A DNA stretch of 21,788 nucleotides from a virus: positions 1 through 21,788 of IMG/VR virus record IMGVR_UViG_3300036781_000803; one strand, given 5' to 3'. Each line of letters begins with the position of its first letter. The first letter of the stretch is position 1. The notes under the pieces were generated by a model. It was not told the DNA's origin. It saw only the letters and a list, made by a program, of their open reading frames with translations, and made no database searches. Shown one piece after another: positions 2,279-6,342 of this stretch. The position numbers were made by a program, and so were the translations under genes.

Positions 2279-2543
2279 GGTGGTTCTCCTGCCGCGCGTC
2301 GATCGCCTTGCAGACGTCGACGTGGCTCTCGCCTCGGATCTCGGGCTTGCTGATGCCCTCGATGCTCGACCAGCGGCCGCGCCCGGCTACGGCCACCTTG
2401 TGGGTGTCGTACATGAGGATTTCGCCCTTGTATTCCCAGCGGTTGAGACCGGCCGGCACCAGGAAGTAGGCGAGACGCTCAGGGTCTGGTGCATGCGGCG
2501 CGGGCGCGGCTACTGGCTCGTCGTCGAAGAGGTCGAACGTCAT
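2271..2543 (-). CDS. Hypothetical phage protein (90 aa)
   Basis: This 90-residue protein starts with an acidic segment (MTFDLFDDEP), has a Pro/Ala linker and then a folded-looking part (RLAYFLVPAGLNRWEYKGEI, and WSSIEGISKPE about residues 58-68). It is not recognised. The start makes an ATGA overlap with the cytosine methyltransferase upstream, and the stop overlaps the Cys-rich microprotein by 8 bases, so it belongs to the tightly coupled accessory operon. No membrane segment or signal peptide is visible. Confidence 0.72.
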   Translation of the reverse strand: MTFDLFDDEPVAAPAPHAPDPERLAYFLVPAGLNRWEYKGEILMYDTHKVAVAGRGRWSSIEGISKPEIRGESHVDVCKAIDARQENHHA

Positions 2544-3457
2544 GCAGCCTTCCGCAGCTCAGTGATCACGTCGCGCGCCACTGGCGGGCACACGGCATTG
2601 CCGAGCATGTGCACAGCCTGCCGGTGCCGCGCGGGTAGGCGGTAGGTTTCTGGGAATCCCATCGCGCCGCGGTTCTCTTCTGCGGACAGCATGCGCATCC
2701 GGTCGCCGTCGACGATCGCCCAGCGGTCCAGCGTGGTGATGGTGCCGATCGGGCGCGAGAGGCTGCGGCCGGTCAGCCCGGAGCCGCTGCCATAGTAGGG
2801 CATCAGAAAGCGCCGGCCATGCCGCGCCCGGCCCGCGGCCACGCGAGCGAGCGTCGCGGCAGAGCGGCCCGGTCGATCAATTGCGGCCCACTTGCCTTCG
2901 CCGAAACGGATGAAGGAATCAGCGCCGACGTGTGCGCGCGGCGTCATCTGCAGGTGCAAAGGGTGCTTGCTGCGCGTGCCGATGATGAAGATCCGGCGGC
3001 GGTGCTGCGGCACGCCGTGATCTGCCGCGTCGAGAATGTGCGGCGCGAGCGCGTACCCCAGCGCGGACATGGCGCTGCACCATGCAGGAAACAGCGTCCA
3101 CTTCGCGAGCTCGACCACGTTCTCGACAACGACTGCGGCGGGGCGATGGCATTCGACGGCCGACACTACGGCCCACGCGGTGCTGCGCTGCGCGTCATGG
3201 TGGTCCTTTTCCTTGCCTCGGGCGGGGCTGTGCCCCTGGCAGGCGGGCGAGGCCAACAGCAGGTCATGCGCCGGCACATCTCGCCAGTCCGCCTGTTGCA
3301 CGTCCTGGCAGGCGTGCGCCGTGCCCGGATGGTTGGCCGCATGGACGTCGACCGCTGCCTGCCAGTGGTTGGCGGCCCAAACGACCTTCACGCCGGCCAT
3401 CTCTGCGCCCGTGGTAAAGCCGCCGGCGCCTGCGAAGAGATCGATGCCGGTGATCAT
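2540..3457 (-). CDS. C5 DNA cytosine methyltransferase
   Basis: This 305-residue enzyme transfers a methyl group from S-adenosylmethionine to carbon 5 of cytosine in DNA. Motif I is DLFAGAGGF (6-14), the catalytic loop is SPACQGHS with nucleophile C73 (P-A-C-Q instead of the usual P-P-C-Q), motif VI is ENV (112-114), motif VIII is QHRRRIFIIG (151-160) and motif X is GNAVCPPVA (286-294). The target recognition region between motifs VIII and IX is short, as in monospecific phage enzymes. No cognate restriction nuclease is nearby, so protection against host restriction or an epigenetic role is more likely than a restriction-modification pair. It overlaps its neighbours by 4 bp on both sides. Confidence 0.94.
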   Translation of the reverse strand: MITGIDLFAGAGGFTTGAEMAGVKVVWAANHWQAAVDVHAANHPGTAHACQDVQQADWRDVPAHDLLLASPACQGHSPARGKEKDHHDAQRSTAWAVVSAVECHRPAAVVVENVVELAKWTLFPAWCSAMSALGYALAPHILDAADHGVPQHRRRIFIIGTRSKHPLHLQMTPRAHVGADSFIRFGEGKWAAIDRPGRSAATLARVAAGRARHGRRFLMPYYGSGSGLTGRSLSRPIGTITTLDRWAIVDGDRMRMLSAEENRGAMGFPETYRLPARHRQAVHMLGNAVCPPVARDVITELRKAA

Positions 3458-3723
3458 GCGGCGCTCGATGTGGTCTGCACGGTGCCGGCGCGGAAGATTC
3501 GTGCGATTTCATCGAACGCGGTAGCCATCTCTTCGAGGCGATGTGCCGACGACGGAAGCCAGAACGTCACCGCGCTGCGGTCATCGTCCATCGGCGGGTG
3601 ATGGAGACGCTCGGTGCTGTGCAATATCAGCTGAGCGGCCTGATAGACGCGGCCCGTGTTACTGACCTTTTCGAGTGCGATGACTTCGGAAGTCAACTCC
3701 TGGCTGTAGACGTTGATTCTCAT
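3454..3723 (-). CDS. Hypothetical phage protein (89 aa)
   Basis: This 89-residue soluble protein has a likely helical first half (SQELTSEVIALEKVSNTGRVYQAAQLIL), a segment DDDRSAVTFWLPSS and a second helix (AHRLEEMATAFDEIARIF). It is not recognised beyond being phage-like. Its ATG forms an ATGA overlap with the stop of the DGR reverse transcriptase, so it is co-translated with the retroelement, and its stop overlaps the methyltransferase start in the same way. Nothing in it suggests a direct retroelement role. Confidence 0.75.
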   Translation of the reverse strand: MRINVYSQELTSEVIALEKVSNTGRVYQAAQLILHSTERLHHPPMDDDRSAVTFWLPSSAHRLEEMATAFDEIARIFRAGTVQTTSSAA

Positions 3724-4844
3724 CTCGTGTCCTTGCTATGGAAGATCTTGGTTAGACGGCCATCGACCGCATGCCCGCGCTTGAGCAGCGCGCGCGCCAC
3801 GGCGGCTTGTTCTTGGTGGCTGGAGCCCGCCTGCCGCACCAGGCCGAGGTAGCTGTTGCCGGTGGCAAAGAGCTCCTCGGCCGGCAGGGTCTCGATGCGC
3901 GCGAGCGCAGCCCGCAACGTGCGTGGCCGCGTCATGCGGCGCCAGGGCTTGATCAGGTGGCCAACGAAGTCGACGCCACGCGCCACGGGCTGCAGGATCG
4001 TCTTGCGTGGGTTGAGCCTCAGATGCAGCTCGGCCAGCTTGCGCTCGATCTGCTCGCGCGCGGAGTTGAGCCACTGCGGGTCATGGTGCAGCAGGACGAA
4101 GTCATCGACATAGCGCACATAGTGCGGTGCGCGCAGGCGATGCTTGGCGAACTGGTCCAGATCGTCGAGCAGCACATTGGCGAAGAACTGGGACGACAGA
4201 TTGCCGATCGGCAATCCATGGTCGGGCGGCGCATTGAACAGGCGCTTGTGCGGCGGCACCAGCTCGAGCTCGCGACGGCCGCCGCGCATCTCGACCTCCT
4301 GCCGCGGGTCGTGCATCAGGATGGCCTCGGCGAGCCACGCCCACCACGGCTCTGTAATGCGCCGCTGCAGCTGATCGAGCACCACGTGCTTGTCGATACT
4401 CACGAAGAAGTTGGCCAGGTCGCACTTGAGATAGTGCGCCGGCCGGCTCCAGTTGCGCGTGATGCTGCGCACCTGGTGCTCCAGCCGCCGAGCGGCGTAT
4501 AGGGTGCCGCGCCCTGGAATGCAGGCGCAGCTGTCGGCCGTGAAGGCCGCATGGAAGCGCGGGGCGATGCGGTTGTACAGCAGGTGATGCACGATGCGGT
4601 CGCGGAACTGCGCCGCCCACACCTCGCGCGGCCGCGGCCGGGTGATGACGAAGCAGATGGAGCGGCCAGGCCGATATGCGCCGCTGGCCAGCTCCTCGTG
4701 CAGCTCAAAAAGATTGCTCTCGGCATGGGCCTCGAATGCGAGCGCGCTGGCGCTGCCGCGCTTCGTGCGCCGGCAGTCGAGGTAGGCTTGAACGAGCAGG
4801 GGAAACAGGTCGGAATCTGCGGGCGGCAACGGCGCAACCCTCAT
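3720..4844 (-). CDS. DGR-type reverse transcriptase
   Basis: This 374-residue RNA-directed DNA polymerase should copy the template RNA with errors at adenines. The palm shows CDLANFF (catalytic D142), the DGR-typical GLPIGNLSSQFFAN (210-223), whose SQ block replaces the QG of other reverse transcriptases, and YVRYVDDF with catalytic D247/D248. N-terminal and thumb regions match the DGR layout (LFELHEELASGAY about 45-57; VDFVGHLIKPW about 291-301), and there is no maturase or integrase domain. The ATG at 4844 gives the family's usual length but lies inside the TR and lacks a well-placed ribosome binding site. The frame stays open to an ATG at 5081 that overlaps the avd stop as ATGA (453 residues), so translation through the TR is an alternative. 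It lies downstream of targets, avd and TR, as in phage BPP-1. Confidence 0.95.
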   Translation of the reverse strand: MRVAPLPPADSDLFPLLVQAYLDCRRTKRGSASALAFEAHAESNLFELHEELASGAYRPGRSICFVITRPRPREVWAAQFRDRIVHHLLYNRIAPRFHAAFTADSCACIPGRGTLYAARRLEHQVRSITRNWSRPAHYLKCDLANFFVSIDKHVVLDQLQRRITEPWWAWLAEAILMHDPRQEVEMRGGRRELELVPPHKRLFNAPPDHGLPIGNLSSQFFANVLLDDLDQFAKHRLRAPHYVRYVDDFVLLHHDPQWLNSAREQIERKLAELHLRLNPRKTILQPVARGVDFVGHLIKPWRRMTRPRTLRAALARIETLPAEELFATGNSYLGLVRQAGSSHQEQAAVARALLKRGHAVDGRLTKIFHSKDTR

Positions 4845-4907
4845 AGCTCTTGTGGTTGTTGTTCTGGTTGCCGTTGTTGAAGTTGCAATTCCAGGCGTAC
4901 GAGGCCT
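4816..4907 (-). repeat. DGR template repeat (TR)
   Basis: This 92-base template aligns without gaps to VR1 (5490-5581) and over 87 bases (4819-4905) to VR2 (5989-6075). Read on the minus strand it is rich in AAC/AAT codons, encoding W-N-C-N-F-N-N-G-N-Q-N-N-N-H-K-S in the target frame, the typical arrangement that maximises substitution at codon positions 1 and 2. Every difference to VR1 (10) and VR2 (12) is at a coding-strand adenine. The last 25 bases (4819-4843 on the plus strand) are identical in all three copies and correspond to the initiation-of-mutagenic-homing block. The reverse transcriptase start codon lies within the TR. Confidence 0.96.
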
Positions 4908-5077
4908 TGTCGCGCTATGTAGGCGGTCATCCCGAAGGCCATGGCCGATCAGGGTGGCGGCTGCACCGGACCGGGCCTGCCCGAAGGCAGCGGTCTCCGC
5001 GGCGTGCATGTCGGTGGACTCGTGATCCAGCGGCGCGACCAGATTCACTATGCGCACGGGCATGAGGGCCTTGACCG

Positions 5078-5440
5078 TCATGCTGCAGGCGCCCTGTTCG
5101 CTGTCTTGAGCCATCCGCCGGCCTGCTTACCGATGCTGCCCAACAGCTGCACGGACTCGGCCCACAGCCTGGGCGAGAGGTGCTTGCGGTCGAAGATGAC
5201 CCGCAGCATCACCGTCACGGCGCGCTGCTTGGTGAGCAGCTCCTGAAGGTGTGCTGCGCGCATCTCGCGCTGCGACGAGTTGGCCAGCGCCATGAGCTCG
5301 AGGATGTCGACGCAATGCTGCGTGATCTTCTCGCCCATGATGCGCTTGAGGTTGCGGGGCATTTGCTCCTGCACGCTGACGGCGAGGTCGAGCAGTTGCA
5401 CGCCTGTCCGGTAGATCGGCAGATCCGTATGCAGGGCCAT
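5078..5440 (-). CDS. avd: Avd-like DGR accessory variability determinant
   Basis: This 120-residue, almost entirely helical basic protein fits the Avd four-helix bundle. Helices are visible at about residues 7-26, 30-53 (MPRNLKRIMGEKITQHCVDILELMALAN nearby), 57-84 (REMRAAHLQELLTKQRAVTVMLRVI) and 90-114 (RLWAESVQLLGSIGKQAGGWLK). In Bordetella phage BPP-1, Avd forms a pentameric barrel that binds the reverse transcriptase and template RNA and is needed for cDNA synthesis. Placement between the target genes and the TR/reverse transcriptase is the classic order. The stop overlaps an ATG at 5081 that opens the upstream-extended reverse transcriptase frame. Confidence 0.92.
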   Translation of the reverse strand: MALHTDLPIYRTGVQLLDLAVSVQEQMPRNLKRIMGEKITQHCVDILELMALANSSQREMRAAHLQELLTKQRAVTVMLRVIFDRKHLSPRLWAESVQLLGSIGKQAGGWLKTANRAPAA

Positions 5441-5456
5441 TGGCGAGGCTCATCTC

Positions 5457-5469
5457 AAAAGGATTGAAG
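5457..5469 (-). repeat. 13-bp repeat downstream of VR1
   Basis: AAAAGGATTGAAG on the plus strand occurs here and again at 5953-5965, each shortly after the stop codon of a VR-bearing gene and ahead of the next start codon. It may be part of the homing-site context, a leftover of the duplication that made the two targets, or a leader for the next gene. Its role is unknown. Confidence 0.6.
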
Positions 5470-5480
5470 GACCGAAGGGA

Positions 5481-5936
5481 TCAAAGAACTCTGCGGGCGG
5501 CAACGGCGCAACCCTCATAGCTCTTGTGGTCGTGGCCCTGGTTGCCGTCGTCGAAGTAGCAAAACCAGGCGCACGAGGCCTCATCCGCATGCACCTCGTT
5601 GGACCAGTGCCAGCTCTGTTCCACGTGCGGCCTGCAGTTGGCGAAGATCAATGCCAGCTCCTGGCGGTCCGGCAGATCGCCGCCCAGGCCCTGAGCCCAG
5701 TTCATCGCCGATTGCCAATCGAGGCGGCCTTCGGGCCGCTCGGCCATCAGGACCAGGTGATGCTTGACGCTGCCGTCCGCGTCGAGCACGGGCCCGACAT
5801 AGCGGTCGCCGGCGCGCAGCTCGATGGCGACCTCGGGGATGAAGTAGGTCGTGCTGACCTGCGCCTGCAGCTGTTCGATCATGCTGGCCAACTCGGCCTG
5901 ACGGGCCTGGACGGCTTGGATGGTGACTGGGGTCAT
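5481..5936 (-). CDS. DGR target protein 1 (C-type-lectin-like/DUF1566-like, variable C-terminus)
   Basis: This 151-residue protein starts with a short predicted coiled coil (VQARQAELASMIEQLQAQV, about 8-27) and continues into a C-type-lectin-like, DUF1566-related fold: WQSAMNWAQGLGGDLPDRQ (74-92), LALIFAN (94-100), WHWSNE (109-114). Its end is encoded by VR1. Variable residues by TR comparison are 122, 125, 127, 129, 130, 134, 135 and 136; the scaffold residues (W124, C126, F128, G131, KS, EGCAVAAR) match the TR. There is no signal peptide or tail-fibre domain, so the displayed ligand surface may act inside the cell; the binding partner is unknown. The start at 5936 follows a GAGG. It is paralogous to target 2. 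Confidence 0.93.
   Translation of the reverse strand: MTPVTIQAVQARQAELASMIEQLQAQVSTTYFIPEVAIELRAGDRYVGPVLDADGSVKHHLVLMAERPEGRLDWQSAMNWAQGLGGDLPDRQELALIFANCRPHVEQSWHWSNEVHADEASCAWFCYFDDGNQGHDHKSYEGCAVAARRVL
5490..5581 (-). repeat. DGR variable repeat 1 (VR1)
   Basis: This stretch aligns to the TR with a constant offset of 674 bases. It differs at 10 positions (TR 4857, 4860, 4862, 4863, 4875, 4878, 4884, 4889, 4890 and 4898), each a T on the plus strand and therefore an A on the coding strand. Changes on the coding strand are A to G, C or T. It ends just before the stop codon of target 1, with the invariant GC-rich initiation block at its 3' end. Confidence 0.96.
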
Positions 5937-5952
5937 GGGTGGCCTCGGGGAA

Positions 5953-5965
5953 AAAAGGATTGAAG
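5953..5965 (-). repeat. 13-bp repeat downstream of VR2
   Basis: This is the second copy of AAAAGGATTGAAG, lying between the stop of target 2 and the ribosome binding site of target 1. The same spacing logic as at 5457-5469 supports duplication of a target-plus-flank unit. Confidence 0.6.
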
Positions 5966-5967
5966 AA

Positions 5968-6342
5968 TCAAGCGGTGAGCGGAATCAAGCGGGCGGCAAC
6001 GGCGCAACCCTCAGAGCTCTTGTGGCAGTCGTACTGGTAGCCGTCGTAGAAGCTGCAACCCCAGGCGGACGAGGCGTCGTACTCCTCGCTGGTCCAGTGC
6101 CAGCGCTCGACCAGGTGCTTCTTCACGTTGGCGAAGAGCAGCGCGGCGATCGGGCGGGTGGGCAACTGCGCGCCGAGCTTTTCGGCCCAGGCAACGGCGG
6201 CCTTCCATTTGATGTCCTGCGCTCTGTCTGGCAGCAGAACTACAGCGACGTGCATGCCGTCAGGCTGGGTGATCACGCCGGCGAAGATGCCGCCTTCGAG
6301 TTCGGCGCCGATGGCGGGGAGGGAAGTGAGAGTCGTGCTCAT
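5968..6342 (-). CDS. DGR target protein 2 (C-type-lectin-like/DUF1566-like, variable C-terminus)
   Basis: This 124-residue paralogue of target 1 lacks the N-terminal coiled coil. Shared scaffold: WKAAVAWAEKLGAQLPTR (46-63), LLFAN (68-72), VERWHWTSEE (78-87) and the terminal EGCAVAAR. Its C-terminus is encoded by VR2; residues changed relative to the TR are 92, 95, 97, 99, 100, 102, 104, 105, 106 and 110, with Tyr, Asp, Ser, Gly and Cys replacing the template Asn/Tyr. The ATG at 6342 (MSTTLTSL) is preferred to the in-frame ATG at 6423 because the extra 27 residues overlap the upstream gene and look noncoding; an AAAGG lies upstream of it. No signal peptide is present. Ligand unknown. Confidence 0.92.
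   Translation of the reverse strand: MSTTLTSLPAIGAELEGGIFAGVITQPDGMHVAVVLLPDRAQDIKWKAAVAWAEKLGAQLPTRPIAALLFANVKKHLVERWHWTSEEYDASSAWGCSFYDGYQYDCHKSSEGCAVAARLIPLTA
5989..6075 (-). repeat. DGR variable repeat 2 (VR2)
   Basis: This stretch aligns to TR 4819-4905 with a constant offset of 1170 bases and differs at 12 positions (TR 4844, 4856, 4857, 4860, 4863, 4869, 4875, 4878, 4883, 4889, 4890, 4898). All are coding-strand adenines in the TR. VR2 shares no variable codon outcome with VR1 except one Asp, which indicates independent mutagenic events. Confidence 0.96.

Follow-up and report, generated by a model that had tools for sequence, protein, structure and literature searches.

A diversity-generating retroelement with a structured leader RNA before its template repeat in a phage contig

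Gene content of the retroelement locus

The analyzed window comprises a complete IMG/VR virus record, 21,788 bases in length. An integrase-like frame occupies positions 1-1014 (read from the ORF list) and the terminase large subunit, detected by family search, lies at the opposite end; therefore, the contig is likely a fragment of a temperate phage. A preliminary description had placed the locus in a prophage, which the integrase-like gene makes likely, although host flanks are absent from the record. On the minus strand, the order of elements is VP2 (with the variable repeat VR2), VP1 (with VR1), avd, leader, template repeat (TR), and the reverse transcriptase (RT) gene (Table 1). A C5 methylase gene (2540-3457, family search) is located just downstream of the RT gene. 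In both the window and the phage Magia, the neighbors of the target genes are early genes (integrase, methylase, ParB-like), and no recognized tail genes adjoin them.

Table 1. Features of the retroelement locus (positions in the window)
Feature	Position	Strand	Evidence
Reverse transcriptase, 374 aa from ATG 4844	3720..4844	-	ORF list, family and structure-relative searches
a1, TR 3' end plus 3 nt (CAGAUUC), pairs with a1'	4813..4819	-	complementarity, covariation, parsimony
Template repeat (TR)	4816..4907	-	repeat search, ungapped alignment
RT-15 structured leader RNA (Rfam RF03018), 5' of TR	4903..5094	-	Rfam match, alignment, fold
Closing helix (helix 2), 3' strand (GCGCGAC), ends 1 nt before TR	4909..4915	-	consensus fold
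Closing helix (helix 2), 5' strand (GUCGCGC)	5033..5039	-	consensus fold
a1', conserved GAAUCUG, pairs with TR 3' end	5040..5046	-	complementarity, covariation
Leader hairpin H (leader helix 1)	5052..5092	-	alignment columns 10-50, consensus fold
Avd accessory protein	5078..5440	-	Pfam, NCBIfam, PHROG matches
8-nt-period degenerate tandem following VR1	5455..5489	-	pattern scan
Target protein VP1, lectin fold (Lcl_C-like), carries VR1	5481..5936	-	alignment, family search, structure model
Variable repeat VR1	5490..5581	-	repeat search, ungapped alignment
8-nt-period degenerate tandem following VR2	5947..5988	-	pattern scan
Target protein VP2, related to VP1, carries VR2	5968..6342	-	alignment, sequence comparison
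Variable repeat VR2	5989..6075	-	repeat search, ungapped alignment

The three repeats were recovered at the positions given in the preliminary description, and its count of adenine-only differences was reproduced. In ungapped alignments of the minus strand, the TR differs from VR1 at 10 positions in 92 nt and from VR2 at 12 positions in 5989-6075. All 22 differences fall at TR adenines; differences at other bases were looked for and amounted to zero. With 27 A among the 92 TR positions, the chance that all ten VR1 differences fall on A is 1.2e-6 (VR1 alone).

Both proteins of the mutagenesis machinery were confirmed as previously described. The RT matches Pfam RVT_1 and the PHROG RT family (1e-111), and among solved structures the best relative is the 8ub7-8ube reverse transcriptase (3e-34), with group II intron RTs far behind (2e-9). 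In a phylogenetic tree built without a non-DGR outgroup, it groups with the RTs of other diversity-generating retroelements (DGRs) that bear TR/VR pairs. Retron identity of the RT was not indicated (Retron St85 RT model, 43.5 bits versus a cut-off of 235), and the Rfam search of the window returned no retron RNA. The accessory protein matches the PHROG family "Avd protein of DGR" (3e-22), NCBIfam DivGenRetAVD (E 6e-12), and Pfam bAvd (1.5e-9), the last two with scores under the curated cut-offs.

In VP1, the VR encodes the last ~30 residues. The structural model of VP1 has a pLDDT of 85.5, with the low-confidence segments at residues 117-138 corresponding to the VR-coded part; its best PDB matches are the Legionella Lcl C-terminal domain and C-type lectins, with E-values of 0.005-0.1, all above 0.001. 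By this model, the VR is in the C-terminal part of a target with a predicted C-type-lectin fold. A 52% identical VP2 homologue is encoded at 1946-2314 of EBPR siphovirus 1 (JF412302.1), a record for which no similar RT was listed. The locus is a DGR, a known kind of system, and is complete as had been proposed, with the TR, both VRs, Avd, a DGR-type RT, and two lectin-fold targets. Neither of the refuting outcomes named in the preliminary description, many non-adenine differences or an RT of a non-DGR clade, was observed.

The RT-15 leader RNA and its helix with the template repeat

The one Rfam match in the window, RT-15, is full-length, scores 156.2 bits versus a gathering threshold of 82, and ends 5 nt inside the TR. 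About 170 nt of structured leader precede the TR, which itself runs into the RT gene; the nearest RT start codon is inside the TR. Scans with the RT protein yielded 72 viral and 24 genome loci, and about 60 relatives were compared. An adenine-tolerant repeat script detected TR/VR pairs in most of the scanned loci, with mismatches nearly always all at TR adenines, and the RT-15 leader was present in 45 of 48 related records and 16 of 17 related genomes. The phages Magia, Cruim01, vB_Sb_QDWS, and SC_8_H2H8_2017 belong to the same lineage as the window DGR. Burkholderia phage Magia and Pseudomonas phage Cruim01 also share its gene order (targets, Avd, leader, TR, RT); the annotation of the former names an Avd and a potential DGR target and that of the latter gives RT-15 as a misc_RNA, but neither joins the RNA to the DGR.

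The association was also assessed in an RT-blind manner by searching RF03018 in 399 genomes of one order while ignoring the RT. All nine matches above the cut-off (two of these genomes are also in the RT scan) adjoin an RT and an Avd, and at each of the nine a TR, accompanied by adenine-biased VRs, begins at an offset of -4 to +1 nt from the end of RT-15; none of the four weak matches has such a TR. The Rfam name marks an association with RT only, whereas here RT-15 is assigned to the 5' portion of a DGR template RNA. Our literature search found no account of RT-15 or of a 5' DGR handle; the first description of the motif was outside this search, so an earlier notice of a DGR link is possible.

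RNAalifold applied to 51 leaders predicted 47 pairs, forming the hairpin H followed by a multibranched domain with a 7-bp closing helix (5039-5033 / 4915-4909). In this fold, 96.3% of cells are paired versus 87.2% after shuffling, and double changes occur at 31 of the 47 pairs versus 15.0 in shuffled data (0/500 shuffles). Slid registers pair 23-42%, but this control is biased toward the fold because the structure was derived from the same sequences. The double-change counts are the stronger evidence.

The conserved segment a1' is unpaired in the leader fold, lies directly 5' of the closing helix, and is complementary to the TR 3' end. In 54 loci, with both sides anchored on neighboring conserved bases, pairing was found at positions 0-8 and none beyond; the pairing sum for positions 5-8 was reached by 0/10,000 shuffles. 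Among 47 distinct sequences, 87.7% of cells are paired (77.3% shuffled), with 45 double-change cells versus 15.9 (0/500), although these shuffles ignore relatedness. Parsimony on an RT tree was added for that reason and gave at least 10 compensatory changes that each involve both sides. Slid registers pair 21-44%. Complementarity is kept with different letters in the distant members L093/L094 (AUCAUUUG/CAAAUGAU), L095 (AAGAGCUC/GAGCUCUU), and L097 (AUGAUCUC/GAGAUCAU), each an 8-bp run, and likewise in L032 (CAACCUG/CAGGUUG) and Bacteroides phage F2 (GUUAUCUG/CAGAUAAC, read from the sequence). Pairs 5 and 8 are mismatched in about 40% of sequences, and in groups L056-L075 the pairing comprises a 5-bp core only (AUCUC/GAGAU), without per-locus significance. 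When sequences are folded singly by thermodynamics, the helix exceeds a probability of 0.5 in just 20 of 54, so its formation may need protein.

Comparison across the loci shows that the a1' strand of the leader pairs with the TR 3' end, a helix that is present in the window RNA but not in the Rfam RT-15 model. Since this helix is nested, a1/a1' and the closing helix make up a single continuous helix from which the TR (about 89 nt) bulges out as one very large loop, with both of its ends side by side.

RT-15 could instead be a cis-regulatory leader for RT translation or mRNA stability, outside the template RNA machinery. It lies just upstream of the RT, and the RT frame remains open beyond the TR to an ATGA at 5081-5078 (minus), at the avd stop. 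In all 22 close relatives examined, this ATGA is in frame with the RT across the leader and the TR, and length changes are multiples of three, so translation and folding would have to compete; translation from the ATGA through both elements is possible. A codon-position signal along the RT frame of the leader was looked for in these 22 relatives and not seen. Against this role, stops interrupt the ATGA-to-RT frame in several other subgroups, the leader abuts the TR to within 4 nt and pairs with its 3' end, and it remains attached to the TR in L018, L023, L083/L084, and L086, where the RT is 0.3-1.9 kb away (in L023, L083, and L086, the intervening DNA has methylase-like frames, identified from translation only). 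We consider a purely cis-regulatory role unlikely.

Variable repeats and activity in the lineage

The sequences that follow the VRs differ from those in BPP-1. A BPP-1-type hairpin or cruciform directly after the VR was not detected, as the stems found within 40 nt of 159 VRs did not exceed those of shuffled sequences in length, whereas the BPP-1 control gave its 8-bp stem; some sublineages have GC-rich hairpins about 30-45 nt downstream of the VR. An 8-nt-period degenerate tandem (such as CTTGATTCTTCAATCCTTTT) follows VRs throughout the lineage, including L004-L100. This pattern was picked after looking, and with that proviso it occurs at 112 of 125 VRs versus 2 of 125 shuffled sequences and 0 of 67 TRs, lag-8 self-identity downstream of VRs is 0.424 versus 0.266, and nine other DGRs show a weaker lag-8 signal (p 0.0005).

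Additional VRs were observed several kb off the DGR core in L035 (1901), L077 (3781), L078 (4794), L079 (5017), L083 (1159), L088 (4925), L093 (3251), and L096 (1345), which points to putative remote extra targets.

The preliminary description had called the element recently active, which goes beyond the data for this copy, as an exact 36-nt search of IMG/VR found no strain-level relatives of the contig. Among the other loci, the pairs L039/L040 and L021/L082 differ by 5-6% overall and have identical TRs, with 8-16 changes per VR at A sites versus 0-2 at other bases. Of the 19 differences between L063 and L073 over 2.6 kb, 18 fall at VR A sites. Such VR-confined change with an unchanged TR supports activity of the lineage, as judged from these relatives only. 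That the window holds an ordinary DGR copy, now inactive, would fit the lack of a close relative in that search, but its RT, Avd, TR, leader, and both targets are all intact, the VRs are free of non-adenine differences, and the relatives are active; we regard inactivity as quite unlikely.

Template RNA architecture compared with BPP-1 and retrons

The window DGR resembles that of the Bordetella phage BPP-1 in its RT, Avd, TR, adenine-specific mutagenesis, and VR at the C-terminus of a C-type-lectin-fold protein. The comparison with BPP-1 drawn in the preliminary description holds for the adenine signature, whereas the template RNA architecture differs. BPP-1 has 0 nt between avd and TR and a 144-nt structured spacer between TR and RT; in the window, the leader fills the former interval and the TR overlaps the RT start. 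The only Rfam match of BPP-1, RF03022 ("Bacteriophage Diversity-Generating Retroelement RNA"), is in this TR-RT spacer. By its layout and the Rfam search, the window does not carry a BPP-1-type template RNA with a structured spacer 3' of the TR and before the RT.

The same division extends to the relatives. In the leader class, the distance from the avd stop to the TR is mostly 130-240 nt and that from the TR to RT residue 17 mostly 16-50 nt, versus 0-31 nt and 150-335 nt, respectively, in the spacer-class controls. A branch with support 100/99 in the RT tree separates all leader-type RTs from the spacer-type RTs; on the spacer side, placements are uncertain owing to long outer branches. It is very unlikely that the element works exactly as BPP-1, with a spacer handle hidden in the RT 5' coding region and the leader secondary: BPP-1 requires its 3' spacer (PMC12875486) and the RT start here directly follows the TR, but the Rfam search of the window gave no RF03022 or RT-14 match 3' of the TR, the third-position excess in the first RT codons is ordinary, and conservation ends a few bases past the TR where other DNA follows directly.

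We concluded, with a probability of about 0.75, that the DGR template RNA is laid out as leader, TR, and RT, with the leader acting as a handle clamped to the TR 3' end. BPP-1 uses its spacer to recruit bRT-Avd, and cDNA synthesis starts at the TR 3' junction from an internal adenine that serves as the primer (PMC12875486). Located on the opposite side of the TR, the leader resembles the BPP-1 spacer in its kinds of elements, having a hairpin, a stretch complementary to the TR end, and a structured domain, and it would do the same job of recruiting RT-Avd and placing the TR 3' end for self-primed synthesis. RT-Avd would bind the leader, and cDNA synthesis would be primed from a 2'-OH near the a1/a1' junction. 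The cDNA would copy the TR with errors at adenines, stop at the closing helix, and then replace VR1 or VR2.

Complementarity at the TR end also occurs in spacer-type DGRs. In Bacillus phage BalMu-1 (L119), Rfam RT-14 matches at 1286-1429, directly 3' of the TR, and looks like another DGR spacer RNA. In four spacer-type phages, three of them read by eye, the TR end finds its complement some 50 nt downstream, beyond a hairpin: CUUAUCA/UGAUAAG in BalMu-1, which is helix 1 of RT-14, and, by eye, CCUUUG/CAAAGG in L120, UGAUGG/CCAUCA in L124, and UUGCCUU/AAGGCAA in L125. The corresponding match in BPP-1 itself is short and does not reach significance on its own. The order H, a1', domain, TR, a1 of the leader type is cyclically identical to the order TR, a1, H, a1', domain of spacer-type DGRs, which suggests that the two RNAs are circular permutations of one ancestral RNA; this is the least certain step and draws mainly on BalMu-1 and the three phages read by eye. 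BPP-1 priming is placed at spacer position 56, and by that count the priming adenine follows AGGUG-GUC. Because the priming adenine of BPP-1 follows a1'-GUC and the leader type has a1'-GUC-G, G5036 (minus) or a neighbor is a candidate primer. We propose tentatively, at rather less than even odds, two circularly permuted architectures that would both clamp the TR 3' end beside the priming nucleotide.

Retrons also place structured RNA 5' of the template, as in msr-msd-RT (PMC8867640). The window system differs from them in that, by score, its RT is not of the retron type; it also includes Avd, TR, and VRs, and its cDNA would edit another gene.

The kind of system described here is known; what is unusual is a template RNA with a structured handle before the TR, in the opposite order to BPP-1, the phage on which the mechanistic understanding of DGRs is based. 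Should a large phage lineage rely on a 5' handle in place of a 3' spacer, search strategies and engineered designs built around a spacer would overlook or disrupt it. The orphan RNA motif RT-15 would gain a place, and a specific helix is predicted, which compensatory mutations could test. A template that keeps its handle even when separated from the RT gene would be well suited to mutagenesis tools working in trans.
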